Below are positions 14,942 to 30,153 of a DNA stretch of 64,000 nucleotides, in pieces. Numbering within the stretch: position 1 is the first letter of the stretch; every line of letters starts with the position of its first letter. The stretch is taken from the NCBI RefSeq assembly GCF_026013545.1, contig NZ_JAPDOG010000002.1:1-64000 (forward strand), written 5' to 3'. A program made the translations under genes and the position numbers. The DNA is from Defluviimonas salinarum (GTDB lineage Bacteria > Pseudomonadota > Alphaproteobacteria > Rhodobacterales > Rhodobacteraceae). The notes beneath the pieces were generated by a model. It was not told where the DNA came from and made no database searches. It saw nothing but the letters and a program-made list of their open reading frames with translations.

Positions 14942-15195
14942 GTTCGAGGTAATCTCGGCCTGCGGCCCTTGAAGCAACACTGACAGCCTGCCGCGATTGC
15001 CCCGGGGTGTCGCACCATGCGGCGACAGCATCTCATCGGGAATGCCATCATGCCCGGCTAGGGCGGCATTATCTGGCTGCCTTTCATCGTCGCGGAGACG
15101 CCGATCCTCTTGCGATGCGGAAAGGGCCGCGACGGGCGTTCGACACCTCAGTCTTATCCCGAAGGCCGAAGCGGCGTTCTTCAGGAAACCCAATC

Positions 15196-15906
15196 ATGTA
15201 TCTCACTCTCGCTTCCTGCGCGCTTTCCACTACATGGATCTTCTGGGCCTGGACCCATTCGGCCCATCGTCGTTCCGTCCCGGCGAAGTGGACCCGGCTG
15301 CGGGGCGCGTCGATGACCGCTGTCCTCCGCTGGATCATCTTGCTTTCGCTCGGAACGGGCGCGCTGGTTGCCACATTCTTCAGGCCGCTCGACACGCTTG
15401 CAGAACTGAATCCTTCGCCCGGTGCGATAACACGTCTGGCGCCTGTCCTCGCGATCTTCCTGAGATCCCGGCTTCGGGCCGGATTTCCGACAGCGGACCT
15501 GAAACCGATCGAGGGCCATTCGGTACCGCGCAGAGCAACCTCAGCCCGCGCCGTTGCGCAAGAACGCCCAATTCAATCCGGCCCCAAGCCGGCACCCACA
15601 GGATCCACCATGCAGATTTCCTCACCGATGAACTCCGAGAACGCGGCTGCCGGAGCGCGACCGCACATTCCCCATTGCCACCCACGGCCCCTCGACTTGT
15701 CCGGGTCGCAAACGAAGCCCGGGCGTCCGCCAAGCCGATGCGTGGATTGCGGCACCGAGATCCATTCGCAAGCGACGATCTGCGCGATCTGTGAGCGACG
15801 TCAGAATCACCGACCGGCCGCGGGGCGGCGTGTGTTTGTCGATTGGCTCCTCCTGTTGGGCATCATGAGCGCGATCTTCGGTCTGGGCCACATACTGGCC
15901 AATTGA
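15196..15906 (+). CDS. Zinc-ribbon membrane protein of unknown function
   Basis: The C-terminal 60 residues carry a CVDCGTEIHSQATICAIC zinc-ribbon (two CxxC pairs) followed by one transmembrane helix (VDWLLLLGIMSAIFGLGHIL) and the end of the protein. Two further hydrophobic segments lie near the N-terminus (YLTLASCALSTTWIFWAW and MTAVLRWIILLSLGTGALV). The ATG at 15196 is preceded by CAGGAAAC. Starts at 15313 and 15610 are possible, the latter giving only the ribbon plus helix. The family is not recognised; such ribbons often cap small membrane adaptor proteins. Confidence 0.45.
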   Translation: MYLTLASCALSTTWIFWAWTHSAHRRSVPAKWTRLRGASMTAVLRWIILLSLGTGALVATFFRPLDTLAELNPSPGAITRLAPVLAIFLRSRLRAGFPTADLKPIEGHSVPRRATSARAVAQERPIQSGPKPAPTGSTMQISSPMNSENAAAGARPHIPHCHPRPLDLSGSQTKPGRPPSRCVDCGTEIHSQATICAICERRQNHRPAAGRRVFVDWLLLLGIMSAIFGLGHILAN

Positions 15907-15942
15907 TCGCGCCTGCCGAACACATCCCCTTTTGCGGGTGTC

Positions 15943-17760
15943 ATGTCCGACACCTCTGATCAGGATTCCCTGGCTATGCCTCTCAATTTCGACCAACTCA
16001 CCCCGTTGCTCGCCCTTGCTCTACTGACGGCGGTTTTCGCTGCCTTCATCGCGGAGCGCCGCCCCGCCGACGTGATCGCCTTCCTCGGAGCGACGGTTGC
16101 GTTGGCGCTCGGCCTCGTCACGACGGATGATGTCATGGCGGCGATCAGCAATCCCGCGCCCGCAACGATCGGCGCGATGTTCGTGCTGAGCGCCGCGCTG
16201 GTCCGTACCGGTGCGCTGGAAGCGTTGATGGACGTGCTCGGCCGGATTTCCGGCACGCGTCCGCGCCTTGCGCTGGTCGTGTTCTTCGCCGGTGCCGCGG
16301 GCGCATCCGCCCTTATCAACAACACCCCTGTCGTCATCGTGCTGATCCCGGTTGCGATTGGTCTCGCCCGGCAGATCGGAACGGCTCCGTCCAGGCTGCT
16401 CATGCCGTTGTCTTACATGGTGATACTCGGCGGCACCGTGACGCTGATCGGTACATCGACCAACCTGCTCGTCGACGGCATGGCGCAGGATCTCGGGCTT
16501 GTCAGGTTCAGCCTGTTCGAGATCGCGCCCCTCGGTATCCTCGCAGCGATCGGCGGCGGCCTGTTTCTTGCTGTCGCGGCGCCCCGGCTGTTGCCCGACC
16601 GGGGCGCCGTCATTGACACGCTGTCGCGACAGGACCGAAAAACATGGCTGGCGGATCTGTTCATCCCGGACGGCTCCCCCCTGATCGGCGCAGTCCCGAC
16701 CGAGATCGCGTCCCTGGCCCGCGGCGGCGGTCGGGTCGTTGATGTGATCCGCGGAGACGTTTCGCTGCGTCGCATGGTGCAGGATGTCCGGCTCGCCGCG
16801 GGCGATATCCTGGTCGTCAAGACGCGAGACGTGGAGCTGATGGGTTTTCGCGAAGGCGTGACTCGCGGGGCCGTCATTCCCGGGCTTGAGACCGCCCAGA
16901 TCCGCAGTGCTCAGGCTGTCGAGCTTCTGGTCGGTCCGGGGTCCAAGGCAGAAGGCCGCAGCCTCGCGCGGCTCCGCTGGCGGCGGCGTTTCGGGGTCTA
17001 CCCGCTGGCACTTCACCGCAAGGGCGAGACGCTCGGGGCCAGGTTCGAGGATACGCCCCTTGCCGTCGGCGACACGCTCTTGGTCGAGGGTGCGCCCGAG
17101 GACATGGCGCGGCTGGCCGAGGACCAGCGCCTGACGGAGCTTGGGCCGAACAAGGTGCGCGCCTTCCGTCACGGCAAGGCGCCCATCGCGGTGGCGGTAC
17201 TGCTGGGCGTCGTCACGCTTGCGGCGCTCGACGTCGCTCCGATCCTGACGCTCGCGCTGCTTGGTGTCGGCGTGGTTCTGGCGACGAACTGCATCGAGGC
17301 GGATGAAGGGTTGGCGGCGATGGACGGGCGGCTTCTCCTGTTGATCGTATCGATGCTGGTGCTCGGCACCGCGCTGGACCGGTCGGGCGCGGTCGAACTG
17401 GTCGTCGGCGCCGTTTCGCCGATGCTTGGCGCTGCCGGTCCGTTCGTTGCCCTGGCGATCGTCTATGCCTTCACATCCATCCTGACCGAGCTTGTGACGA
17501 ACAATGCCGTGGCAGTGCTGATGGTGCCGATTGCGGCGGGCATTGCCACCAGCCTCGGCGTCGATCCGCGCCCGTTCCTTGTCGCGGTCATGTTCGGCGC
17601 GTCTGCCAGCTTCGCCACTCCCATCGGCTACCAGACCAATACCCTCGTCTACAACGCCGGCGGCTACCGCTTCACCGATTTCCTGAAGATCGGCCTGCCG
17701 ATGAATATCATCGTGGGGAGCCTGACCGTCGCCGCGATACCACTCTTTTGGCCGCTGTGA
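15943..17760 (+). CDS. SLC13-family permease with two RCK_C domains
   Basis: A 605-residue membrane protein of the divalent anion:Na+ symporter (SLC13/ArsB-like) superfamily. Two transporter halves (about residues 15-205 and 405-605) contain the paired motifs NNTPVVIVLIP and GTSTNLLVDG in the first half and TNNAVAVLMVPIA and PIGYQTNTLVYNAGGY in the second. Between them lie two TrkA-C/RCK_C-type regulatory domains (about 215-385, each with the DxLLVEG/DILVVKT type strand). Proteins of this layout transport sulphate or other anions, but the substrate cannot be read from sequence. Alternative ATG at 15976. Confidence 0.88.
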   Translation: MSDTSDQDSLAMPLNFDQLTPLLALALLTAVFAAFIAERRPADVIAFLGATVALALGLVTTDDVMAAISNPAPATIGAMFVLSAALVRTGALEALMDVLGRISGTRPRLALVVFFAGAAGASALINNTPVVIVLIPVAIGLARQIGTAPSRLLMPLSYMVILGGTVTLIGTSTNLLVDGMAQDLGLVRFSLFEIAPLGILAAIGGGLFLAVAAPRLLPDRGAVIDTLSRQDRKTWLADLFIPDGSPLIGAVPTEIASLARGGGRVVDVIRGDVSLRRMVQDVRLAAGDILVVKTRDVELMGFREGVTRGAVIPGLETAQIRSAQAVELLVGPGSKAEGRSLARLRWRRRFGVYPLALHRKGETLGARFEDTPLAVGDTLLVEGAPEDMARLAEDQRLTELGPNKVRAFRHGKAPIAVAVLLGVVTLAALDVAPILTLALLGVGVVLATNCIEADEGLAAMDGRLLLLIVSMLVLGTALDRSGAVELVVGAVSPMLGAAGPFVALAIVYAFTSILTELVTNNAVAVLMVPIAAGIATSLGVDPRPFLVAVMFGASASFATPIGYQTNTLVYNAGGYRFTDFLKIGLPMNIIVGSLTVAAIPLFWPL

Positions 17761-17893
17761 TGCTTCCGTTTCGGCGTTCGTCAGCGTCTGCCGATCGGTC
17801 GGACGAACCCGATTTTTTCGCGCTCGCCCATGAGTGGCCGCCTTGAAACGGATGGGGCGGTACGCCAATTCCCCCGACAGCAATGATCGCGGA

Positions 17894-18880
17894 GTGGCGC
17901 AATTGACGGAAATATGGCTGCCCCTGACGGCAGGCTTGGTTATGCTGATCTTCGGCGGCGAGCTTCTGGTGAGGGGAGCGGTCCGGGTGGCGGAGCGCCT
18001 TGGCGTTTCGCCGCTGGTTATCGGTCTGACGCTGGTCGGCTTCGGGACATCCACGCCGGAGCTGGTGACGTCGGTTCAGGCCGCGCTCATCGGATCGCCC
18101 GGCATTGCCTTCGGCAACATCGTCGGCTCGAACATTGCCAATATCCTGCTCATCGTCGGCCTGTCGTCCATCCTGTTTCCGATCGCGGTGGCAGCGTCTG
18201 CACTGCGGCGCGATGCCGTCGTGATGCTGGGTGTTGCCGTCGCCTTCGCGGGCCTCGGCTTCGTCGTCCCGATGGGGCGTGCCATCGGTGTGGTTTTCGT
18301 CGTCGGGCTCGTCGCCTACATCTACCTTGCCTTCAGGCAGGAGAAGGCCGCGGCAGGGCATGGCGCCGTATTTGCCAAGGAAGCTGCTCTCGAGGGCGTT
18401 GATCCGGGCCTCAAACCCGGCGTGCCGGCCGCAAACGGGATCGTCGGGCCGCTGTTGATCGCCCTGGCTGGCCTCGTCCTGGTCGTCGGGGGTGGCAAAT
18501 TCCTGGTCGATGGTGCGGTAACTCTCGCGCAGTCGTTCGGCATTCCGGAGACCGTGATCGGGCTGACGATCGTGGCCGTCGGAACCTCGATGCCGGAACT
18601 CGTCACGTCAGTGGTGGCCGCCGTGAAGCGGCAAAGCGACGTCGCCTTCGGCAATATCGTCGGCTCGAACATCTACAACATCCTTGGCATCGGCGGTGCG
18701 ACCGCCCTCATCTCCCCCTCGGCCGTACCGGCCGAGATCGTCTTGTTCGACAATCTCCTCATGGTGGGGGCCACGCTCCTGCTCGTCGTTTTCGCGGCCA
18801 CGGGGCTGCGCATCGCGCGTTGGGAAGGCGGCGTGCTGCTGGCCGCCTATGTTGCCTACGTCCTGATGATATGGCCATGA
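17894..18880 (+). CDS. CaCA-family Ca2+/Na+ antiporter (YrbG-like)
   Basis: A ten-helix cation/Ca2+ exchanger with both alpha repeats: GFGTSTPELVTSVQAAL with GNIVGSNIANILLIVG, and AVGTSMPELVTSVVAAVK with GNIVGSNIYNILGIGG. Acidic residues in the two repeats form the ion site. Length is 328 residues from the GTG at 17894, matching YrbG-type proteins. Other in-frame starts exist (GTG 17834, ATG 17852, TTG 17903) and none has a strong ribosome-binding site, so the start is uncertain. Confidence 0.85.
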   Translation: MAQLTEIWLPLTAGLVMLIFGGELLVRGAVRVAERLGVSPLVIGLTLVGFGTSTPELVTSVQAALIGSPGIAFGNIVGSNIANILLIVGLSSILFPIAVAASALRRDAVVMLGVAVAFAGLGFVVPMGRAIGVVFVVGLVAYIYLAFRQEKAAAGHGAVFAKEAALEGVDPGLKPGVPAANGIVGPLLIALAGLVLVVGGGKFLVDGAVTLAQSFGIPETVIGLTIVAVGTSMPELVTSVVAAVKRQSDVAFGNIVGSNIYNILGIGGATALISPSAVPAEIVLFDNLLMVGATLLLVVFAATGLRIARWEGGVLLAAYVAYVLMIWP

Positions 18881-18968
18881 GCCCGTCTCGGCCGGCGCGC
18901 GTCCGCCGCACCGGCGCTCGCAACGAGGGGACTGGTAGAATGGCGAACTTCAGACCAGATAATACCCT

Positions 18969-19268
18969 ATGAAAAACCTGAGGGCCTTGTGGCGTGGCGA
19001 GTTGGGCCTTGACGCGGCGTTCTGGACCTGGGCCGTGCTTGGCGGCCTGTTGGTCAATGTCACGACCAGCATCCTGTTCCTGGCGCTCATGACGCTCGAT
19101 CAGCCCTTGCCGGCGCTCCTGGTCGGATACGGGTTTTCGCTCCCCTACAACCTTGTCGCTCTGGTCGGCGTCTGGAGGTCGGCGGCGCGGTATGACGGGC
19201 CGGGCCTACATGCGGACCTTGCGCGGGTGGCCACCGTGATCCTCATGACCATCCTGAGCCTGACATGA
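18969..19268 (+). CDS. Small membrane protein, translationally coupled to next gene
   Basis: A 99-residue protein with three hydrophobic segments (AVLGGLLVNVTTSILFLALM, LLVGYGFSLPYNLVALVGVW and a C-terminal VATVILMTILSL). The family is not recognised. Its TGA overlaps the ATG of the following gene by four bases, so the two are probably translated together and may act in the same membrane complex. Confidence 0.65.
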   Translation: MKNLRALWRGELGLDAAFWTWAVLGGLLVNVTTSILFLALMTLDQPLPALLVGYGFSLPYNLVALVGVWRSAARYDGPGLHADLARVATVILMTILSLT

Positions 19269-20200
19269 CCCGAGGGCCAACGACTGACGGCGAGACGGAC
19301 CTCGCGCGGCGAAGGCAGGTCGATGCCTTCGTCCAGCGTCATTTCACATGGCGGGGAACCCTGCGCCTGCACCGCGCGGCGCTCGGCGCCGATATCCTGC
19401 GGGCTCCGGTGAACGTGCTGCTGTCACCGGCCCACGTTACCGTGCGGCTCACGGGGTGGATCTGTCGAGGACTGCGCCTGCGCCGGACGGCGGATTTTCT
19501 GCTCCGCCGGCAGATCCTGTTGCGCACGGCCGTCTCGGCGAGGGTGGAAGCCGCGATCCTGACCGAGCTATTGGCGGCGCCGCCTGCCGAGGGCGAGGCC
19601 CTCGGAGACCGCACCGCATTGGCGCGGGCCATCCTGTCCGCCCCACGCTTTCGTGAGGCGGCCCGGAGCCGCGGCAGCATCGCGGCGGCGCAAGCCATGG
19701 CGGACCGGATCGCAGCTGCGATCACCGAGTACTCCGGCGCCCGCTCCGCGATGGCCGAGTTCACAACGGCCCTCATGACTCTGGTTGCGGGCGCCATCGT
19801 GCTTCAGGCCGTGACGCCCGGGATGATCTCGATGGCCGCGGGCGTCGCGGAGTCGGTTTCCCTAAAGAGGGCCGTCGCGGATTTTCCGCTCGGTCAGACT
19901 TTGGGCGGGGTCTGGTACGGGATCTTCCCCGCCGGCCTCTCGCCGCGGCTGGTCGCAGCCGTCGCTGCCGGCCTCATGCTCCTGGGGTCGGTCATCACAG
20001 CATTCGCCGGAGCGTTTGCCGACGTCGTTCAGGCATGGCTCGGCATGCATCGGCGCAGGTTGCTACGCCTGCTCGACACGGTGGAGGCCGAAACTGCTGC
20101 ATCGCCCGGCAAACCCTTTGCCGCCAGCGAACATCTTCTCGCGCGGGTCTTCGACCTCTCGGATGCCGCACTGTCGCTGCTGCGGATATTCCGGGGATGA
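19265..20200 (+). CDS. Membrane protein resembling DUF6635 family
   Basis: A 311-residue protein with an amphipathic/basic N-terminal third (FTWRGTLRLHRAALGADILRAPVNVLLSP) and about three transmembrane helices in the C-terminal half (TTALMTLVAGAIVLQAVTPGM; GGVWYGIFPAGLSPRLVAAVAAGLMLLG; SVITAFAGAFADVV). The N-terminal region resembles proteins that I remember as DUF6635 in Rhodobacteraceae, an assignment I cannot check. Function unknown. Coupled to the small membrane protein upstream by an ATGA overlap. Confidence 0.65.
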   Translation: MTRGPTTDGETDLARRRQVDAFVQRHFTWRGTLRLHRAALGADILRAPVNVLLSPAHVTVRLTGWICRGLRLRRTADFLLRRQILLRTAVSARVEAAILTELLAAPPAEGEALGDRTALARAILSAPRFREAARSRGSIAAAQAMADRIAAAITEYSGARSAMAEFTTALMTLVAGAIVLQAVTPGMISMAAGVAESVSLKRAVADFPLGQTLGGVWYGIFPAGLSPRLVAAVAAGLMLLGSVITAFAGAFADVVQAWLGMHRRRLLRLLDTVEAETAASPGKPFAASEHLLARVFDLSDAALSLLRIFRG

Positions 20201-20735
20201 CAGGCGATTCAGTGTGCCGAGGGAAACAGCGATGCACGCACGGCGCGAACAGGAATGCCTCTACGCGAAGCCGCGCTGCACCCTGACCGAACCGCTGCCT
20301 TGAAGATGCCGCGATGCAACGCAAAGCATGTGTTCGACCGGCTCCAATTCGCGCTCTGCGCTCGGGGTCGTTCACGGCGCGCCGATCCAGCGTGCGCGCG
20401 GCACATTGGACCGGCGGCTCGCGGGAGGGCAGCATTGCCCGCAACCACGCGTCGCGTCGCGGCGACGTATCCTCGACCCTTCTTTACGATTCTCGAGGCG
20501 TGTGATCGGGGAGGCATCCCGCCTCCGACCCGAATGCCTGGGCGGCGGATGGCAATTCTCCGGGCCACATGGCGTCGCGTGATCGGTGGCGCCGGAGCGA
20601 CCCGAGCCACACAATCATTCCCGTTGGCAGATCGCCTTCTGCTTCGTAGGATATTGGAGCTGGGCAATGGTTTCGCGGGGCAGTTTCTGTGGTGCGCAAG
20701 CGGTTACTGCCGCGATACATGGGCGCCGGAGCGCC
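20201..20735. other. 535-base gap without a supported gene
   Basis: Open frames here are short, overlap on both strands and are rich in arginine, as expected of GC-rich non-coding DNA. Nothing like a transposase, tRNA or conserved protein was recognised. The 3' end must include the promoter of the response-regulator/EamA fusion gene. Confidence 0.5.
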
Positions 20736-22232
20736 ATGATGGCGAGCGCCCGTGTTCTGGTGGTGGACGACGACAGCTTGGCGCGGCGCAAGCTGGTTCT
20801 TGCCGTCAACTCCCTTGGACACACGGTCGAAGATGTCGACAGTGGCGATGCGGCGTTGGACAGACTGCGGAACCCCGGTGTCGACATCGTCCTCCTTGAC
20901 ATCGAGATGCCCGGCAAAAGCGGATACGATGTTCTCTCCGCGCTGGGCTCGTTCCCCGAGGATCGGCGGCCGCCGGTCATCGTCATCTCCAGCCTGGATG
21001 ATCCGGAGGAAATCGCCCGCGCCATCGAACTGGGAGCCGTGGATTTCCTGCCCAAGGCGTTCAACGCGGTCATTCTCAGGGCCAGGATCAATGCCAGCCT
21101 GCGGGAGGCCCGGCGCCAGGAGGACGACAGGCGCACTCTGCAACAGATAAGGCGGCTCACGGCCGCCGCCGAAGCTCTCGATGCCGACGAGAGGAATCCC
21201 AGGGATCTCGCCATCGACGATCTCGCGGAGGGGGAAGGTGCGATCGCGGTGCTTTCCCGCGTCCTTCTGAACAAGTCGATCATGGTGTACAATCGTCGGC
21301 TGAGTCATGCATACCAGATCCGGACACTGAACGGCATTCTGCTGCTGCTTTTCATTGGTGCCTGTTTCGGGCTGAAGCCCGCCATCGCCAAGCTCAGCCT
21401 TGCCGAGGTGCAGAACCCCATTTCCGTTGCGTTCTACACGATGGGGCTTTCGACGGTTTTCACGACGCTCTATGCAGTCTGGTCCAAGGCCCGCGCGCCT
21501 CGGGTCTCCCGGCGTTCGGCCAGGTTCTTCGCCCTCCTCGCTTTTCTGACGTTCCTGCCACAGGTTCTCCTGTTCTGGGTGGCCGAGTCCGTTCCCGGCG
21601 TCATGATCGCGATCCTGGTTTCGCTGGAATCGTTTCTGGTCTTCTTCATCGCGGCGGGGATCGGGCTTGAAAGACTCAGCGTCCGGCGGTTCATGGGCCT
21701 GCTCCTCGGGGTCGCGGGTGTCGGTGTCCTGCTGCTTCCGTTCTTCGACATCGCCAATAGCACCGTGCAGATCCACTGGCTCTTCATCACGATGCTGATC
21801 CCTGCCTGTTTTGCGAGCGAGACGATCATGATGTCGATGTCGAAAGCCATCGACGCCGACCTGATCGCGGTGGTCGCGGTCACCTTCGGCCTGTCGACCT
21901 CGGTTCTCTTCGTCGCCTCCGCGCTGAACTCCGGCTTCGTCCCGCTTCACGCCGTTCCGGGCAAGTTCGAACTGTCGCTCATCGCGTTCTCGCTCGCCGA
22001 TTCCGTCGCCATGATCGCTCTGGCCAAGCTGATCGACTATGCCGGACCGGTATTCAGCGGCCAGAAGGCCTACACCGTCTCGATCGGCGGGGTTCTGTGG
22101 AGCGTTCTGCTCTTGAACGAAGTGGTATCGCTGACGAGTTTCACCGCCCTCGTTCTCATACTCCTGGGCCTGTACTTCGTTGCGAAACGGGCCGACGCCG
22201 CGAAGCTGATCGCGCGGCCGGCCCAGGCATAG
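20736..22232 (+). CDS. Response-regulator receiver domain fused to EamA/DMT permease
   Basis: A 498-residue fusion. Residues 1-125 are a complete CheY-like receiver: acidic pocket [12 protein letters not shown], phospho-acceptor [11 protein letters not shown], switch Ser in [10 protein letters not shown] and conserved Lys in VDFLPKAF. A helical, charged linker (about 126-195) follows. Residues 200-490 form about ten helices with EamA-type halves, starting [20 protein letters not shown] and ending [23 protein letters not shown]. All receiver catalytic residues are present, so phosphorylation could gate export of a metabolite. No DNA-binding domain exists. ATG 20736 has GGAG five bases upstream; ATG 20739 is adjacent. 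It is convergent with a broken histidine kinase. Confidence 0.85.
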
Positions 22233-22319
22233 GCCGCGACCGGAATGCACGGGCGACGCTTCCGCATGGCAAGGCGAAGTGACCGCAAGCGTGTCGGGTC
22301 CACTCGGGCCGCCCCCGGG

Positions 22320-22525
22320 TCACAGGAACGATCGCTGTATCACCGGCTCCTCGTTCCAGGACTTGGATTCGACGAGGTACATACCGACGATGATCACGCC
22401 GAAAGCGACCCAGGCGAAGACCGACAGTTCCGCGTTGAAAAGCAGCAGGCCCCAGAAGACACCTGCGATCATCATCGCATAGGCACTCTGGTTGTAGAAG
22501 ACGGCGCCCGCCCTTGATCGCTGAC
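22320..22525 (-). pseudogene. C-terminal relic of a second EamA/DMT permease
   Basis: The minus strand encodes [19 protein letters not shown], then [19 protein letters not shown] and [10 protein letters not shown] before a stop. This is the last two helices of an EamA-type transporter and aligns with the end of the permease domain at 22000-22200 ([16 protein letters not shown]). Upstream in the same direction the sequence switches, out of frame, to a histidine-kinase ATPase domain, so a deletion has joined two genes. Confidence 0.65.
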
Positions 22526-23600
22526 AGCTTTTCAGCCTGGTTCCGGCGACCGGGAAGATCGACCACCTCGCCCAGCAAGGTAAACGTGAAGGCGGTCCCC
22601 GCCCCCGATTTGCTATCGAGGCCGATGGTGCCGCCCATGAGATCGACCAGCCGCTTCGTGATCACCAGCCCCAGCCCGGTACCGCCGTATCGTCGTGTCG
22701 TGGATGCATCGACCTGGCTGAACGACTTGAACAGGCGATCCATCCGGTCCTCCGGGATGCCGATTCCGGTATCGCGGACGGAAAAGTCAGAAGCGTGATC
22801 TCCCCAGGCGACCGGCCCGCATCCGGGAAGTTCGTCGAGACGGTCAGCACGACCTCGCCGATCCCGGTGAACTTGACTGCGTTGTTGAGGAGATTCATCA
22901 GGATATGCTTCGGCCGTACCGGATCACCGAAGATTGCCGCAGGCACGTCGGGATTGATCTGGCAGGCAAGCTCGATGCCCTTCTCGGCGGCCTTCGCAGC
23001 TACAAGCTCGGCCGAGCTTTCGATCGTCTCGGTCAGGTCCATCAGCACGCGTTCCAGTTCCAGCGCGCCGGCCTCGACCTTGGAGAAATCCAGGATGTCG
23101 TTGATGATCGTCAGGAGCGCATCGGCCGCCGTCGCGATGGTGTCGCTGAAACCGCGCTGTTCGTCCGTCAACTGCGTGCCATTGAGAAGCGTGCTCATGC
23201 CGATGATGCCGTTCAGCGGGGTGCGGATCTCGTGGCTCATCGTTGCGAGAAAGGCGCTCTTGGCCTCGTTGGCCGCTTCGGCGGCATCCTTCGCGCGCTT
23301 CAGCTCGTCCGATATGCGCTTGATGTCAGTGATGTCCGAATGGACGGCGACGGTGCCGCCCTGATCCGTCAGGTGGTTGCTGATCTGCTGCCAGACGCTC
23401 TCCGTCATCTCCTGGATGTAGGGCGGCCCCGCCGCGCGATGCCGCGCAAGCTGGCGTTTGATCCACTCGTCGGGATCAGGGCCGGCATTGGGGTATCGTC
23501 CCGCGACAGCGGCCTGCCTGACGATATCGGCAAGCGCAGTGCCGACGGGCAGCGTGGCACCCTGCGGGCGTGAGCCAGTGTGGTCCCGCGGTTGGCGCGC
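22526..23600 (-). pseudogene. Frameshifted PAS-HisKA-HATPase sensor histidine kinase relic
   Basis: Reading the minus strand: a PAS_7-type segment (VWQQISNHL--QGGTVAVHSDITDIKR), a HisKA domain with the phospho-His motif FLATMSHEIRTPLNGIIGM, then HATPase N-box [12 protein letters not shown] one-base frameshift near 22795 follows, after which the other frame resumes with [28 protein letters not shown] and the end of the ATPase domain ([10 protein letters not shown]). No 5' start is visible and the 3' end runs into the EamA relic. It may once have been the partner kinase of the receiver-EamA fusion opposite; that is inference. Confidence 0.75.
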
Positions 23601-23740
23601 GCCGTCTCGGGTTTGACCCTGGCGACGATCGCGTCCGGCACCGGAGAACCTATATGCCCCAAGTCAGAGCTGGCCGACGAACGCATTCTCACGCTCGGCT
23701 GAGGCGTGGGCCGTGGCCTCGCTTTCCAGCCCGGCGCCGC

Positions 23741-24184
23741 TCAGGGAAAGGGCCAATGCAGCCAGGCCGAGGCGATCATGACGTAGCGTCCCGCCTTTCC
23801 GGCCGATACGAGCAGAAGGAAGCGCCAGAACCCCACCCGCGCCAGTCCGGCGATCACGGTCAGGGGATCGCCGACGACGGGGAGCCAGGATACGAGAAGC
23901 GACCAGACACCGTAGCGGTCGAACCATTGGCGGGCCTTGCGTGCGCGGTCGGGATCGACCGGGAACCAGCGACGGCCCTCGTACTGCGCCAGGAACCGGC
24001 CGATGGTCCAATTCACCGCCGCCCCCGTCACGTTGCCGATCGAGGCGACCAGCACAAGCGCCGCTGGCTCGCCGTTTCCAGCCGCCAGCAGGCCGATCAG
24101 GACCGCTTCGGACGATCCCGGCAGGAGCGTTGCCGACAGAAAGGCCGAGAGGGCGATCAGCGCGTAGGCGGAAAGCTCGTCCAC
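23741..24184 (-). CDS. yqaA: YqaA/DedA-like (SNARE-associated fold) membrane protein
   Basis: A 147-residue inner-membrane protein of the COG1238 (YqaA) branch of the DedA superfamily. It has the typical LLPGSSEAVLIGLLA re-entrant segment, NWTIGRFLAQY, and the WLPVVGDPLTVIAGLARV--WRFL motif with the G-(x)-Pro residues common to DedA proteins. The GTG at 24184 is preferred over an ATG further upstream because AGGAAAGG precedes it and the upstream extension is arginine-rich and non-hydrophobic. Confidence 0.8.
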   Translation of the reverse strand: MDELSAYALIALSAFLSATLLPGSSEAVLIGLLAAGNGEPAALVLVASIGNVTGAAVNWTIGRFLAQYEGRRWFPVDPDRARKARQWFDRYGVWSLLVSWLPVVGDPLTVIAGLARVGFWRFLLLVSAGKAGRYVMIASAWLHWPFP

Positions 24185-24373
24185 TGTGGCCTTTCCTGCA
24201 GTGAAACCGGGCGGCTCGCCCGTGGCGTCGCGTCCCGACGGAGGCGACCTCCTCCTGTCATGGCGCATGGGGGAGCGCAACCTCTCCGGCGCGCACCGGC
24301 GCGTCATTCCGCCTCAGGCCGCGGCGCATCGACCCGTCTTGCGCGCCCTCCGCGTGCGACGCAGATTACCGGC

Positions 24374-24700
24374 ATGCGATTGCTTGGCACCATTTTCGCA
24401 CTGATTCTCGTGCTCGCTGGGGCGGCTCTTGCCGCGCCGCAGGGGGCGTTGGCTGCGGCCGGGTGCGACGCCGCGATGCACATGCCCGAAAACGAGCCCT
24501 GCACGCCGCATGAAGGCGCCCCGTCGATGGCCGAATGCGCTCAACCGCTGATGTGTGCCCCGACCAGCGCGGTCGATCTGGAGTCTCATGCGCTGCTCGC
24601 GGCCCCGCTAGGGCAAGCGGCGCCGGCGATCTTCGCCACCGACCACCACCTTGCGGCTTCCACGCCGGGCGACGGCCCAAGGCGCCCCCCCAAGTCCTGA
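24374..24700 (+). CDS. Small exported Met/His/Cys protein ahead of cusBA
   Basis: A 108-residue protein with a signal peptide (LLGTIFALILVLAGAALAAPQG) and a short mature part with four cysteines and metal-friendly residues close together (CDAAMHMPENEPCTPHEG, AECAQPLMCAP). The family is not recognised. It lies in the same direction as the metal-efflux operon, 239 bases before it. A role as periplasmic metal-binding accessory is plausible but only inferred. Confidence 0.55.
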   Translation: MRLLGTIFALILVLAGAALAAPQGALAAAGCDAAMHMPENEPCTPHEGAPSMAECAQPLMCAPTSAVDLESHALLAAPLGQAAPAIFATDHHLAASTPGDGPRRPPKS

Positions 24701-24939
24701 CGGTCGCGGCGCGAGAGCGCCGTCCGGCCGCATGGCGCCGCCATGTGGCCGCATGATGCGTCGCGCCGGCTACCGGGGCGACGCGGCCAATACGGAACAT
24801 GTGGGAGTATCGACATGCACAGATCGTGCCTTCGGCGCGACGTCGCGCGCGTCACGGGCCTCGGCCCGACGGCGGCCGCCAATTGCAACGCGGTCGCTGA
24901 GGATCATTGCCCGGGACTGGCCCGGCGCGGGGTGCGGTC
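24701..24939. other. Gap before cusB
   Basis: This 239-base stretch has no convincing gene; a 43-codon frame at 24815-24943 lacks features. It may contain the promoter or operator of the efflux operon, but no MerR-type dyad was recognised. Confidence 0.4.
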
Positions 24940-26232
24940 ATGAAGGCGGCACGGAATGTCCTTCTGGCGTCGGTCCTTGCCGGCGCGACCGGCTGGGCCG
25001 GGATCACCGCCGGCCAGCAGGCGGCTCCGGCCGCCTCGACTCCTCACGCCCATTCCGGCGCGGAAGCGGCCGGCGGGCTTGACGGGCAGGACGCGATGGC
25101 GATGCCTGTTGCCGCCGGGACGGCGGCCAGCGACACCCGGCGCATTCTCTACTACCGCAATCCGATGGGGTTGCCCGACACCTCGCCGGTTCCGAAGAAG
25201 GACCCGATGGGGATGGACTACATCCCCGTCTACGAAGGCGAGGTCGACGATGCCGGCACCATCCGGGTCTCGCCGGGCAAGCTGCAACGGACCGGCGTGC
25301 GGACGACGCAGGCGATACGCGGGCCCTTGGCGATGACGGTGCGTGCGCCGGGCATTGTCCGGCTCGACGAGCGCCGCCTCACCGTCGTCGCGCTGCGCGC
25401 CGATGCCTTCCTCGAGACCGTTGCGGACGTGACCACCGGGGCAACGGTCCGGCGGGGCACGCCGCTCGCGATGCTCTATTCGCCCGAGGTAACGGCGGCG
25501 GCGGCGCTCTTCGTGTCGGACCTTCGCGACGGCGGAGGGCGGGCCGAAGGCAGCCGGCGGCGGCTGGAGAATCTCGGTGTGCCGGTCGGGCAGATCGACG
25601 CCATCGCGGCGGATCGGCGCGCCCAGGTGAGCATCGCCCTGACGGCGCCGCGGTCCGGCGTGGTTCTGGAGCGTCTCGCGGTCGAGGGAATGATGGCGAA
25701 GGCGGGCGAACCTCTGTTCCGCATCGCCGACACGTCGCAGGTCTGGGTCATGGCCGACGTGCCCGAAGCGGCGCTGAGTGGCGTCGCGCGCGGCGCCGAG
25801 GCGCTGGTCAGCCTGCGCGGGCTGCCAGGCGAGGCGCTCACCGCACGGGTGAGCGAGATCTATCCCGAGGTCGACCTCCAGACCCGGACTGCGAGGGTGC
25901 GCATCGACCTGCCGAACCCGGACGGGCGCTTCCTGATCAACATGTATGCGGAGGTCGAGATCGCCGCAGGCGACCGCGCGGCCGTCGTGCAGGTGCCCGA
26001 CAGCGCGGTTATCGACACCGGCGACCGGCAGGTCGTGATCCGCGATATGGGCGAGGGGCGCTTCGCCGCGCAGGAGGTCGTGCCGGGGCGCCGCGGCAAC
26101 GGCATGGTGGAGATCCGCGACGGTCTTGCCGAGGGGACGCGCGTCGTGACGACCGCGACCTTTCTTCTCGACGCCGACAGCAACCTGAACGCGGCCCTCG
26201 CGGCGCTGTCGGGCGCGGAGGCAGGGCAATGA
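24940..26232 (+). CDS. cusB: Heavy-metal efflux RND periplasmic adaptor (CusB/CzcB type)
   Basis: A 430-residue membrane-fusion protein. After an N-terminal hydrophobic leader and a histidine-containing linker (TPHAHSG) comes the YYRNPMGLPDTSPVPKKDPMGMDYIPVY heavy-metal-binding segment in two halves (positions about 75-102) typical of CusB-like adaptors. The barrel-sandwich hybrid and beta-barrel follow (TVVALRADAFLETV, GMMAKAGEPLFRIAD, VWVMADVPE). It links CusA to an outer-membrane channel, which is not encoded here. The ATG at 24940 fits the signal sequence; the stop overlaps cusA by four bases. Confidence 0.88.
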   Translation: MKAARNVLLASVLAGATGWAGITAGQQAAPAASTPHAHSGAEAAGGLDGQDAMAMPVAAGTAASDTRRILYYRNPMGLPDTSPVPKKDPMGMDYIPVYEGEVDDAGTIRVSPGKLQRTGVRTTQAIRGPLAMTVRAPGIVRLDERRLTVVALRADAFLETVADVTTGATVRRGTPLAMLYSPEVTAAAALFVSDLRDGGGRAEGSRRRLENLGVPVGQIDAIAADRRAQVSIALTAPRSGVVLERLAVEGMMAKAGEPLFRIADTSQVWVMADVPEAALSGVARGAEALVSLRGLPGEALTARVSEIYPEVDLQTRTARVRIDLPNPDGRFLINMYAEVEIAAGDRAAVVQVPDSAVIDTGDRQVVIRDMGEGRFAAQEVVPGRRGNGMVEIRDGLAEGTRVVTTATFLLDADSNLNAALAALSGAEAGQ

Positions 26233-29200
26233 TCGCCAACATCATCGCCTGGTCCGCGCGCAACCTGGTCCTCGTGTTCTTCGCCGCCGCGCTGAGCGTC
26301 GCCGCCGGCATCTGGTCGCTGCGTAGCCTGCCGATCGACGCCATTCCGGACCTGTCGGACGTGCAGGTGATCGTCCTGACCGAGCACCCGGGCCAGGCGC
26401 CGCAGGTGGTCGAGGACCAGATCACCTATCCCTTGACGTCGGCCATGCTGACGGTGCCGCGTTCGCGCGTCGTGCGCGGCTTCTCGTTCTTCGGCATCTC
26501 CTTCGTCTACATCCTCTTCGAGGACAGCGTGGACCCTTACTGGGCGCGCAGCCGCGTTCTTGAATACCTCAACGCCGCCGCTGCCCGGCTGCCCGAGGGG
26601 GTGACGCCGGCGCTCGGGCCCGACGCGACCGGCGTCGGCTGGGTCTATCAATATGCGCTGAAGGGCGAGAACCTGTCCCTGGTCGAGTTGCGGTCCCTGC
26701 AGGACTGGGTCGTCCGCTACGCCGCGAGCCGCGCCGAGGGCGTCTCGGAGGTCGCGAGCGTCGGCGGTTTCGTCAAGCAGTATTCGGTCACGGCCGATCC
26801 GGTGCGGATGCGGGCCCAAGGCATCACGCTTGCCGACCTGAAGGCCGCGATCCGCGCCAGCAACCAGGACACCGGCGGGCGGACCGTCGAGCTGTCGGAG
26901 TTCGAGTTCATGGTGCGCGGCCGGGGCTACCTGCGCGGGATCGAGGATATCGAGACGATCGCGCTGCGCAGCGTCGGAGGGGTGCCGATCCTCCTGCGCG
27001 ATGTCGCGCGGGTCGAGGTCGTCCCCGACGAGCGGCGCGGGATCGCCGAGCTCGATGGCGAGGGCGAGGTCGCGAGCGGCATCGTGCTGCAACGGGTGGG
27101 CGCCAATGCGCTCGACGTGATCGACAATGCCAAGGCGGAGCTCGCGACGGTCTCGGCCGCCCTGCCCGAGGGGGTCGAGATCGTTCCGGTCTACGACCGC
27201 TCCGGCCTGATCCGCTCGGCCATCGCGACGCTGAAGACGACGCTGATCGAGGAAAGCCTGATCGTGGCGGCGGTCACGATACTGTTCCTCCTGCATGTCC
27301 GTTCGTCGCTGGTGGCGATCCTGATGCTGCCGGTGGGCCTCCTGATGGCCTTCGCGGCGATGCGGGCGCTCGGCATCGGCGCCAACATCATGAGCCTCGG
27401 CGGCATCGCCATCGCCATCGGCGCGATGATCGACGCGGCGATCGTGATGATCGAGAACGCCCACAAGCACCTCGAACGCGCCGCACCGGACAAGCCCCGG
27501 ATCGAGGTGCTGATCGAGGCGGCGTCCGAGGTCGGCCCGGCGCTGTTCTTCAGCCTGCTGATCATCACCGTGTCGTTCCTGCCGATCTTCACGCTGGAAG
27601 GTCAGGAGGGGCGGATGTTCGGCCCGCTCGCCTATACCAAGACCTTCGCCATGGCGGCGGCGGCGCTTCTGTCGGTGACGCTGGTGCCGGCGCTCATGGT
27701 CGTCTTCGTGCGCGGCCGGATCATCCCCGAGCACCGTAACCCGATCAACCGGTTCCTGATCGCGCTCTATCGGCCGGTGATCGCGGCGGTCCTGAAGGCC
27801 AGGACCCTGACCATCCTCGCCGCCCTCGCGGCGCTTCTGGCAACGGTCTGGCCGGCGCGGCAACTCGGCTCCGAATTCATGCCGACGCTCGACGAGGGCA
27901 CGCTGATGTACATGCCCACGACGCTGCCTGGCCTCTCGGTCGCCAAGGCCGCGGAGCTGATGCAGACGCAGGACCGCATCATCCGCTCCTTCCCCGAGGT
28001 TGAAAGCGTCTTCGGCAAGGCGGGCCGGGCGCTGACCGCGACCGATCCCGCGCCGACCGAGATGTTCGAGACGATCATCCAGCTCAAGCCGCGCGAGGCG
28101 TGGCGCCCCGGCGTCACCGTCGAGAGCCTGCGGCACGAAATGGATGCGGCGCTGCAGTTCCCCGGCGTTTCCAATGCCTGGACAATGCCGATCCGGGCGC
28201 GGATCGACATGCTCTCGACCGGGATCCGCACGCCGGTCGGCGTCAAGGTCTACGGCGATGACCTAGCCGAACTGGAGCGCATCGCGCGCGAGGTCGAGGC
28301 GGTGCTGCGCACCGTGCCCGGCACCACCAGCGCCTATGCCGAACGGGTGATCGGCGGCTACTACCTCGACATCGTGCCGGACCGCATCGCGCTCGGCCGC
28401 TATGGCCTGTCGGTCGCGGATGTTCAGGAGGTCATCGCGATGGCGCTCGGCGCCGAGGCGATCACCCAGACCGTGGAGGGGCGCGAGCGCTACAATGTCG
28501 CGCTGCGCTATCCGGCCGCCTTCCGCTCCGACCCTGAGGTCATCGAGCGCGAGGTGCAGGTGGACCTGCCCGGCGGCGGCACCGTGCCCCTCGGCGAGGT
28601 CGCGACGATCGAGCGCAACCGGGGTGCGACCGCGATCCGCACCGAAAACGGCCGGCTCACGGTCTATGTCTTCGTCGACATCGCCGGGCGCGACCTCGGC
28701 GGCTATGTCGCCGAGGCGCAGGCCGCGGTCGCGGCGTCGGTGACCCTGCCCAAGGGCTACTGGCTCGGCTGGAGCGGTCAGTTCGAGTATCTGGAGCGCG
28801 CCAAGCAGCGGCTCGCTCTGGTCGTGCCGCTGACGCTCGCGCTGATCTTTCTGCTGCTCTATCTCAACTTCCGCCGGCTGACCGAGACGCTGATCGTGAT
28901 GCTCTCGCTCCCGTTCGCCATGGTGGGGGGCATCTGGCTGATGTGGTTCATGGGCTTCAACTTGTCGGTGGCGGTCGCGGTCGGGTTCATCGCGCTCGCC
29001 GGGGTCGCCGCCGAGACGGGAGTGATCATGCTGATCTACCTCGATCATGCCCTGGAGGAGGCACGCACCGCGGTGCGGGAAAGCGGGCGGTCCCTGACCC
29101 GTGCGGACCTCCATTCGGCGATCATGGTCGGGGCGGTGGAGCGGGTGCGGCCGAAGATGATGACGGTGGTGGCGATCACGGCCGGTCTGATGCCGATCCT

Positions 29201-29381
29201 CTGGGCCGATGGCACGGGCTCAGAGGTCATGCAGCGCATCGCGGTGCCGATGATCGGCGGCATGGTCTCTTCGACGCTCCTGACGCTGATCGTCATTCCA
29301 GCCGTCTACGGGAGCATCAAGGGATGGAGCATGGGGCGCGGCCCGCTTCGCAAGGACGCGCCGGAGCGAATGGCGGCCTGA
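26229..29381 (+). CDS. cusA: Heavy-metal efflux RND transporter, CusA/CzcA family
   Basis: A 1050-residue proton-driven inner-membrane pump of the HME-RND family. It has the 12-helix layout with two large periplasmic loops, the proton-relay motif AIGAMIDAAIVMIENAHKHLE in helix 4 (Asp near residue 400), and the CusA-type AWTMPIRARIDMLSTGIRTPVG segment. Methionines in the porter region support Cu(I)/Ag(I) rather than Zn/Co/Cd, although substrate cannot be fixed by eye. Forms a tripartite complex with the adaptor encoded upstream and a TolC-like channel. Confidence 0.92.
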   Translation: MIANIIAWSARNLVLVFFAAALSVAAGIWSLRSLPIDAIPDLSDVQVIVLTEHPGQAPQVVEDQITYPLTSAMLTVPRSRVVRGFSFFGISFVYILFEDSVDPYWARSRVLEYLNAAAARLPEGVTPALGPDATGVGWVYQYALKGENLSLVELRSLQDWVVRYAASRAEGVSEVASVGGFVKQYSVTADPVRMRAQGITLADLKAAIRASNQDTGGRTVELSEFEFMVRGRGYLRGIEDIETIALRSVGGVPILLRDVARVEVVPDERRGIAELDGEGEVASGIVLQRVGANALDVIDNAKAELATVSAALPEGVEIVPVYDRSGLIRSAIATLKTTLIEESLIVAAVTILFLLHVRSSLVAILMLPVGLLMAFAAMRALGIGANIMSLGGIAIAIGAMIDAAIVMIENAHKHLERAAPDKPRIEVLIEAASEVGPALFFSLLIITVSFLPIFTLEGQEGRMFGPLAYTKTFAMAAAALLSVTLVPALMVVFVRGRIIPEHRNPINRFLIALYRPVIAAVLKARTLTILAALAALLATVWPARQLGSEFMPTLDEGTLMYMPTTLPGLSVAKAAELMQTQDRIIRSFPEVESVFGKAGRALTATDPAPTEMFETIIQLKPREAWRPGVTVESLRHEMDAALQFPGVSNAWTMPIRARIDMLSTGIRTPVGVKVYGDDLAELERIAREVEAVLRTVPGTTSAYAERVIGGYYLDIVPDRIALGRYGLSVADVQEVIAMALGAEAITQTVEGRERYNVALRYPAAFRSDPEVIEREVQVDLPGGGTVPLGEVATIERNRGATAIRTENGRLTVYVFVDIAGRDLGGYVAEAQAAVAASVTLPKGYWLGWSGQFEYLERAKQRLALVVPLTLALIFLLLYLNFRRLTETLIVMLSLPFAMVGGIWLMWFMGFNLSVAVAVGFIALAGVAAETGVIMLIYLDHALEEARTAVRESGRSLTRADLHSAIMVGAVERVRPKMMTVVAITAGLMPILWADGTGSEVMQRIAVPMIGGMVSSTLLTLIVIPAVYGSIKGWSMGRGPLRKDAPERMAA

Positions 29382-30153
29382 TCTTTCCGGCGCACCGGTG
29401 AGAGGGCTCGATCCCGGGCAACCGACGCTTTCGGGCGTTTGAAGGTCCGGGGTCGGGCTACACCCGACCTTGGCGCGGGGCCAGGCCGGAGGTGGCTCGG
29501 GAACGCGGCAGTCGCGTTTCCGATATCTTGAGGCACATGCTGGTCGGCCGGTCAGGCGCCGATCCGGCCGCCGTCACGCCTGAGTGCCCGACGGGCCGCG
29601 GGTCAACGACGCGTTTGTCCGCCCGTGACGCGGCCGGCATTTCCCGGGTGTTGAACACGGTCTGGACAGGGCTCCGTTCGCGGCTAGACGTTTCTGTTGG
29701 CTGGCGTCCGTATCCGCCGGTGGCGAGGCCGGACAGGAACGGGCAGTCGGGCCGGGGGTCGCCGGCGCGGGCCGCGATCAGTGCGCGTTCGCCTGAACAT
29801 CGGTTTTCGCGGCGGTCTCGGCTTTGACCTGCCGCTCTTGAAGGGCCGCGGGAGCCTCCATCACGATGTCGGGGCTTTCCCGGATCGCCTCATGGGCCAG
29901 TTCCCTCACGCGCGCCAGTCGGCCTGTCCCTCCACATCGGCGCCATGACGGGTAGCGTGGTTCTCGGCTTGGAGCCGCTCGCCGGCCGAGATATCCTCCG
30001 CGATCGGGCCGCCCGCCCGGACCCCGCGCCACCAGCTTCGCGCCGCGGCTCCCCGCAGGAACGAGCCTCTCGATCTGGTGGCGTCGGCCTTGGACCGGCC
30101 CTTGCGGCTGCCCTCGGGGATCGCGTCGAGCGCCGCCCGGAACCGGTCTCCGG
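29382..30153. other. Gap between cusA and plsY; no intact gene
   Basis: Seven hundred and seventy bases with only overlapping arginine-rich frames. On the minus strand, FRAALDAIPEGSRKGR (about 30090-30140) and, in another frame, VRELAHEAIRESPDIVMEAP (about 29840-29900) look weakly protein-like. They may be remains of a small gene after plsY. I do not recognise it and see no mobile element. Confidence 0.35.

Follow-up and report, generated by a model that had tools for sequence, protein, structure and literature searches.

The window, a stretch of 64,000 nucleotides from Defluviimonas salinarum (contig NZ_JAPDOG010000002.1, positions 1 to 64,000 of the forward strand), carries an intact gene that joins a CheY-like receiver to an EamA domain of the drug/metabolite transporter (DMT) type, next to the debris of a second such gene and of a hybrid histidine kinase on the opposite strand. 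The features, with the evidence for each assignment in parentheses, are as follows.

20736..22232, + strand: intact receiver-HAMP-like linker-EamA fusion gene, 498 aa (open frame, Pfam, orthologues, dN/dS)
20736..21095, + strand: CheY-like receiver, residues 1 to 120, with the phospho-Asp D55 (PF00072, conserved residues)
21096..21326, + strand: HAMP-like linker, approximately residues 121 to 197 (family linkers against PF00672, profile comparison)
21327..22229, + strand: EamA/DMT transporter domain, approximately residues 198 to 498 (two PF00892 stretches, hydropathy, positive-inside pattern)
22326..22511, - strand: remnant of a second receiver-EamA gene, its last 62 codons (tblastn, 82% identity to residues 465 to 526 of the protein from genome G001)
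22465..23552, - strand: hybrid histidine kinase, broken into two pieces that lie in different frames (tblastn and Pfam)

The fusion frame runs from an ATG at 20736 to a TAG at 22230 to 22232 without an internal stop. Its N-terminal part matches PF00072 (Response_reg) over residues 7 to 118 with 82.2 bits (E = 3.8e-23; Pfam cutoff, 30.2), and its C-terminal part matches PF00892 (EamA) in two stretches, the best at residues 199 to 333, with 59.5 bits (E = 5.4e-16; cutoff, 28.2), which bears out the uninterrupted receiver-EamA frame reported by the first-pass annotation. The complete receiver residue set (acidic pocket, Asp, Ser, and Lys) that it described is likewise in place, as D11, D12, D55, S85, and K107. 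Response regulators typically terminate in a domain that binds DNA, binds protein, or acts as an enzyme; in this chain, EamA is the sole Pfam match beyond the receiver, and Pfam detected none of these known output classes, no STAC match, and no kinase domain, the last being present in one Gemmobacter relative. A simple hydropathy scan of the EamA half recovers nine of the 10 expected helices, missing the one at approximately 436 to 460, and makes one false call within the receiver (96 to 114), so that the 10-helix permease originally proposed is consistent with the two EamA stretches and the nine detected helices but not proven by them. The window EamA domain has no match in NCBIfam, and one relative matches TIGR00950 weakly (36.3 bits; cutoff, 230.2). 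In a PDB sequence search, the best 60 of 306 matches all lie over the receiver, with PleD at the top.

The fusion is confirmed as a real, conserved protein family. The first-pass annotation had raised the prospect of a missed stop or frameshift, or of a fusion lacking homologues; both fail, as three close orthologues (82%, 82%, and 74% identity) and 21 more distant proteins share the uninterrupted fusion. The orthologue in G001, a genome of the window's genus, shares 82% identity along the chain and ends at most 2 codons away from the end of the window gene. Our alignment comprises 25 full-length fusions drawn from 20 genomes (Rhodobacterales, Geminicoccaceae, Devosia, Mesorhizobium, and Pseudomonas), with L031 and G645, which are one contig, counted once; outside these 25 rows stand L125, which nearly duplicates L124, one further (third) Mesorhizobium record, L163 (the second Gemmobacter copy), and the broken or partial genes of G670, G735, G1570, and Brevirhabdus. 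In the alignment, D11, D12, D55, and K107 are invariant, and position 85 is S in 23 proteins and T in two. The junction, on whose conservation across genera the first-pass annotation had laid weight, spans 86 linker columns with zero gaps in all 25 fusions, and the receiver and EamA distances across the family correlate (rho = 0.58). A sequencing error or recent accident, for which we found nothing in favor, is refuted by the homologues with the same fusion and the identical, gap-free linker that they carry across 20 genomes, and its probability is vanishingly small.

The linker was initially described as charged and helical, which is incomplete. Eight of the 24 family linkers scanned match PF00672 (HAMP), the best with an E value of 2.6e-6; one Hyphomicrobiales fusion reaches 25.2 bits, just above the cutoff of 25 (or 25.1 when a longer frame is used), and neither the window's own linker nor the second Gemmobacter copy has a HAMP match by Pfam. 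Comparison of the linker profile with a HAMP profile, built from eight HAMP matches of the window genome (two of them under the Pfam cutoff) and one partner kinase, returned an E value of 7e-6 and a probability of 84; in a rerun with controls, none of 200 column shuffles did as well and the reversed linker failed. After these controlled profile tests, a description of the linker as lacking domain identity was replaced, and by these comparisons the linker of the fusion family appears HAMP-like. In membrane kinases, HAMP comes after the membrane helices; in the fusions the HAMP-like unit precedes them, so that a signal would run from the cytosol to the membrane.

By its gene content, the window locus is a decayed version of the locus seen in G001 and G681, where a binding protein gene is followed by those for the kinase, the HPt, a receiver-EamA fusion, and a convergent second receiver-EamA that is the orthologue of the window gene. 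The two window kinase pieces are 78% and 63% identical by tblastn to residues 316 to 572 and 556 to 673 of the G001 kinase and retain HisKA and a split HATPase_c by Pfam; the first 315 residues and both receivers of the kinase were not found. A tblastn search of window positions 15001 to 30000 recovered just these kinase pieces and the 62 transporter codons, with no binding protein and no HPt. Just upstream of the fusion gene lies a gene for a DUF6635 protein (19265 to 20200, + strand), and at 24907 to 29381 (+ strand) a membrane-fusion protein (HlyD_D23 by Pfam) is followed by a 1,050-aa frame, which by eye resembles a CusA/CzcA-type RND pump. A complete operon with two tandem full-length fusions, 37% and 35% identical to the window protein, is found on contig C60 of the same assembly. 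This 8.6-kb contig has a GC content of 0.607 versus 0.667 for the window, and because it is short and the contamination estimate of the assembly is 3.57%, its place in the window genome rests on binning. With the local kinase broken, the window copy would depend on the C60 operon.

Against the three orthologues, dN/dS of the window gene is 0.09 to 0.12, low in the receiver, linker, and EamA parts, at a dS above 1, and by this measure the gene is still under constraint. Nonsynonymous changes on the window branch are slightly raised (45:66 versus 40:88, p = 0.14; 48:76 versus 37:96, p = 0.08). These, together with the broken kinase, the reduction of the first transporter to 62 codons, and a binding protein and HPt that were not found, are what speaks for the window copy being an orphan heading for loss, with no working role whatever the family does elsewhere. 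We regard such a fate as unlikely, if worth serious attention, given that the frame is open with all receiver residues, that dN/dS is low even though dS exceeds 1, and that the complete C60 operon could serve the window copy.

In the relatives, a hybrid histidine kinase and an HPt adjoin at least one fusion in every one of the 20 genomes with an intact copy. Each of the eight kinases scanned with Pfam combines HisKA and HATPase with a pair of its own receivers; all 22 aligned kinases retain the His as well as the Asp of each receiver, and the HPt His is conserved in all 22 HPts (20 by pattern and two by eye). When the longest frames are taken, the genes of all 11 HPt/fusion pairs overlap or lie at most 12 bases apart, and in six genomes the kinase and HPt are a single protein. 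The HPt is probably the phosphodonor of the fusion. Among the broken or partial copies, G1570 and G735 retain a kinase and an HPt, in G670 the kinase is split and an HPt was not detected, and the EamA-only locus in G565 has neither gene. Decay like that in the window is also seen in Brevirhabdus, where a third receiver-EamA copy (L031:13604-14709, + strand) is in two frames with two intact copies nearby. In Gemmobacter (L035:7971-12029, + strand), a 1,353-aa chain places receiver-EamA before PAS, kinase, and two receiver domains.

The sensors differ between loci, while the HPt and receiver-HAMP-EamA stay constant. A binding protein of no assigned name adjoins the kinase in six loci; it has no Pfam match in any of the four members scanned, no PDB match for the one searched, and a weak match to an EhuB-like model in both members compared (approximately 23 to 24 bits; cutoff, 190.9). 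DctP proteins occur at two fusion loci, Tll0287-like proteins in both loci scanned for them, and SBP_bac_3 near three loci (one codirectional with the kinase and upstream of it, one divergent from it, and one at the far end of the operon), and GAF repeats are found in the Mesorhizobium, Roseicyclus, and Devosia kinases. A scan of 20 flanking proteins for a substrate hint yielded binding proteins and other sensors and no recurring metabolic gene; the sole repeat is a Trans_reg_C/TPR regulator beside the G001 and G681 loci (L024:11308-12873 and L126:11843-13531, + strand). GerE, LysR, DeoR, and LexA regulators are each found near single fusion loci, and because transcription regulators stand near some loci, a purely nontranscriptional system is not favored.

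Because the HPt and receiver-HAMP-EamA form the constant core, we read EamA as an effector. The main alternative is that EamA is an input through which the kinase monitors a solute or solute flux, the role played by the SSS domain in CbrA-type kinases, with the receiver allowing the relay to tune the sensor. The Gemmobacter chain, with receiver-EamA ahead of its PAS and kinase domains, agrees with this arrangement, and transporter domains are kinase inputs in CbrA and MxtR, according to PMC7918813. Set against it are the kinases themselves, which already carry other, varied sensors, and the fact that the majority of copies stand as proteins of their own, with the intact receiver in a position usual for an output; we consider a sensory role improbable. 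Alternatively, EamA may no longer transport and may instead anchor the receiver at the membrane or scaffold it. The first-repeat Pro of two ordinary EamA proteins of the same genome is indeed replaced by G, S, or A in all 25 fusions, yet E312, Q443, Y446, W455, and E462 are invariant in all of them and the EamA part of the window gene has a dN/dS of 0.10 to 0.11, which makes a mere anchor quite improbable.

The distribution of the fusion across the sampled genomes is patchy. A search of relatives found matches in eight of 61 genomes, all of them among the 22 of the window's genus. With only the best three to seven candidates per genome scored, the following counts are lower bounds: at least one of 385 genomes in the class sample (the window genome itself), at least 10 of 394 in the family sample (seven with full-length fusions, one without approximately the first 70 positions, one partial, and one with EamA only), at least three of 398 in the phylum sample, at least one of 198 in the family of the Pseudomonas genome (that genome itself), and at least two of 347 in the order of the Devosia genome (that genome and a broken copy). 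A species-level scan of the best 80 of 346 relatives recovered at least six loci (seven frames) with both domains, in Brevirhabdus, Pseudomonas sp. MMS21 TM103, a Geminicoccaceae MAG, Roseicyclus, Gemmobacter, and Devosia; the Brevirhabdus host (L031) most likely lies in Rhodobacterales, because L031 is a G645 contig and G645 belongs to the window's family. Three Mesorhizobium plasmids carry a receiver-EamA fusion annotated "response regulator," a transposase lies near the C60 genes, and an integrase lies near those of G001. On the basis of the patchiness, this mobile-element context, and the lower GC content of C60, we read the receiver-EamA system as accessory and mobile.

Taken together, these observations lead us to favor, as fairly probable, a fusion that is both the output of a multistep phosphorelay and itself a membrane transporter under its control. 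In this model, a periplasmic binding protein beside the membrane kinase, or GAF/PAS modules, would act as the sensor and drive the two-receiver hybrid kinase, from which phosphate would pass to the small HPt and then, presumably, to Asp55 of the fusion receiver. The phosphorylated receiver would influence the first EamA helix, and thence transport, via the helical, HAMP-like linker, probably through altered helix or dimer packing at the membrane, with gating and dimerization as presumed steps; the direction of transport and the substrate are likewise conjectural parts of the model. The sequences carry the model as far as the single chain, the conserved phosphorylation site, the HAMP-like linker, the kinase and HPt neighbors in relatives, and selection. 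Against it we count a window copy without its own kinase, the window linker and second Gemmobacter copy without a Pfam HAMP match, the transcription regulators near some loci, and the placement of C60 by binning; the Gemmobacter receiver-EamA-kinase chain is also compatible with a sensor role for EamA. Kinase control of a transporter without transcription, as first proposed, has become likelier, given the conservation of the fusion, of its linker length, and of the receiver chemistry and the presence of a kinase and HPt beside at least one fusion gene in each of the 20 genomes; drug export is unsupported.

A second Gemmobacter locus, with the order HPt, receiver-EamA, kinase, and receiver-GNAT, encodes a 317-aa receiver-GNAT acetyltransferase (L163:13430-14380, + strand), whose receiver is close to that of the fusion family (E = 3e-44) and which is possibly a second direct output of the relay. 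Its presence beside the fusion means that a single signal could drive both the modification and the export of a metabolite, an attractive reading that rests on one locus. More tentatively, with somewhat less than even confidence, we can conceive of a class of phosphorelays with metabolic machines rather than transcription factors as outputs, in which a cytosol-to-membrane HAMP unit would open or close a DMT transporter and a single Gemmobacter signal could govern both of these steps.

Like ordinary EamA/DMT transporters, the fusions have two EamA repeats; the ordinary versions differ in lacking a receiver or HAMP-like part and, in both proteins compared, in having a Pro at the first-repeat site. 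The window genome also has a stand-alone EamA gene (G000:C23:22150-23004, - strand; L004) that shares the fusions' second-repeat signature and is possibly a relative of the donor transporter. The output of TorR is a DNA-binding domain. Relays of the TorT-TorS-TorR type resemble several fusion loci in that a binding protein adjoins a hybrid kinase, and TorS/BarA models are matched by the window kinase remnant and the C60-type kinases, one kinase having a TorS_sensor_domain match; they differ in that the regulator of the fusion loci ends in a transporter, with no DNA-binding domain. If the proposed model is true, a covalently attached transporter as the output would place transport under direct, reversible kinase control instead of gene switching, and a HAMP-like unit would pass a phosphorylation signal from the cytoplasm on to a membrane domain. 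The recurrence of the kinase-HPt-fusion operon makes the question directly testable in harmless hosts. Among the matches listed in a search of the open-access literature, no characterized receiver-EamA protein was found, in agreement with the first-pass annotation, which knew of none. CbrA and MxtR/CrbS, as described in PMC7918813, also join a transporter domain to two-component signaling, but in those proteins the kinase bears an SSS domain as its input, whereas the window protein has EamA on a receiver. EpsW, a separate single-domain phosphorylated receiver, directly controls the membrane enzyme EpsZ after transcription, according to PMC12802240; the window protein differs in that receiver and transporter form one chain, and EpsZ is an enzyme. 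Transporter domains on kinases and a receiver acting on a membrane enzyme are already known (PMC7918813 and PMC12802240), and what would be new here is a response regulator with a transporter as its covalent output.
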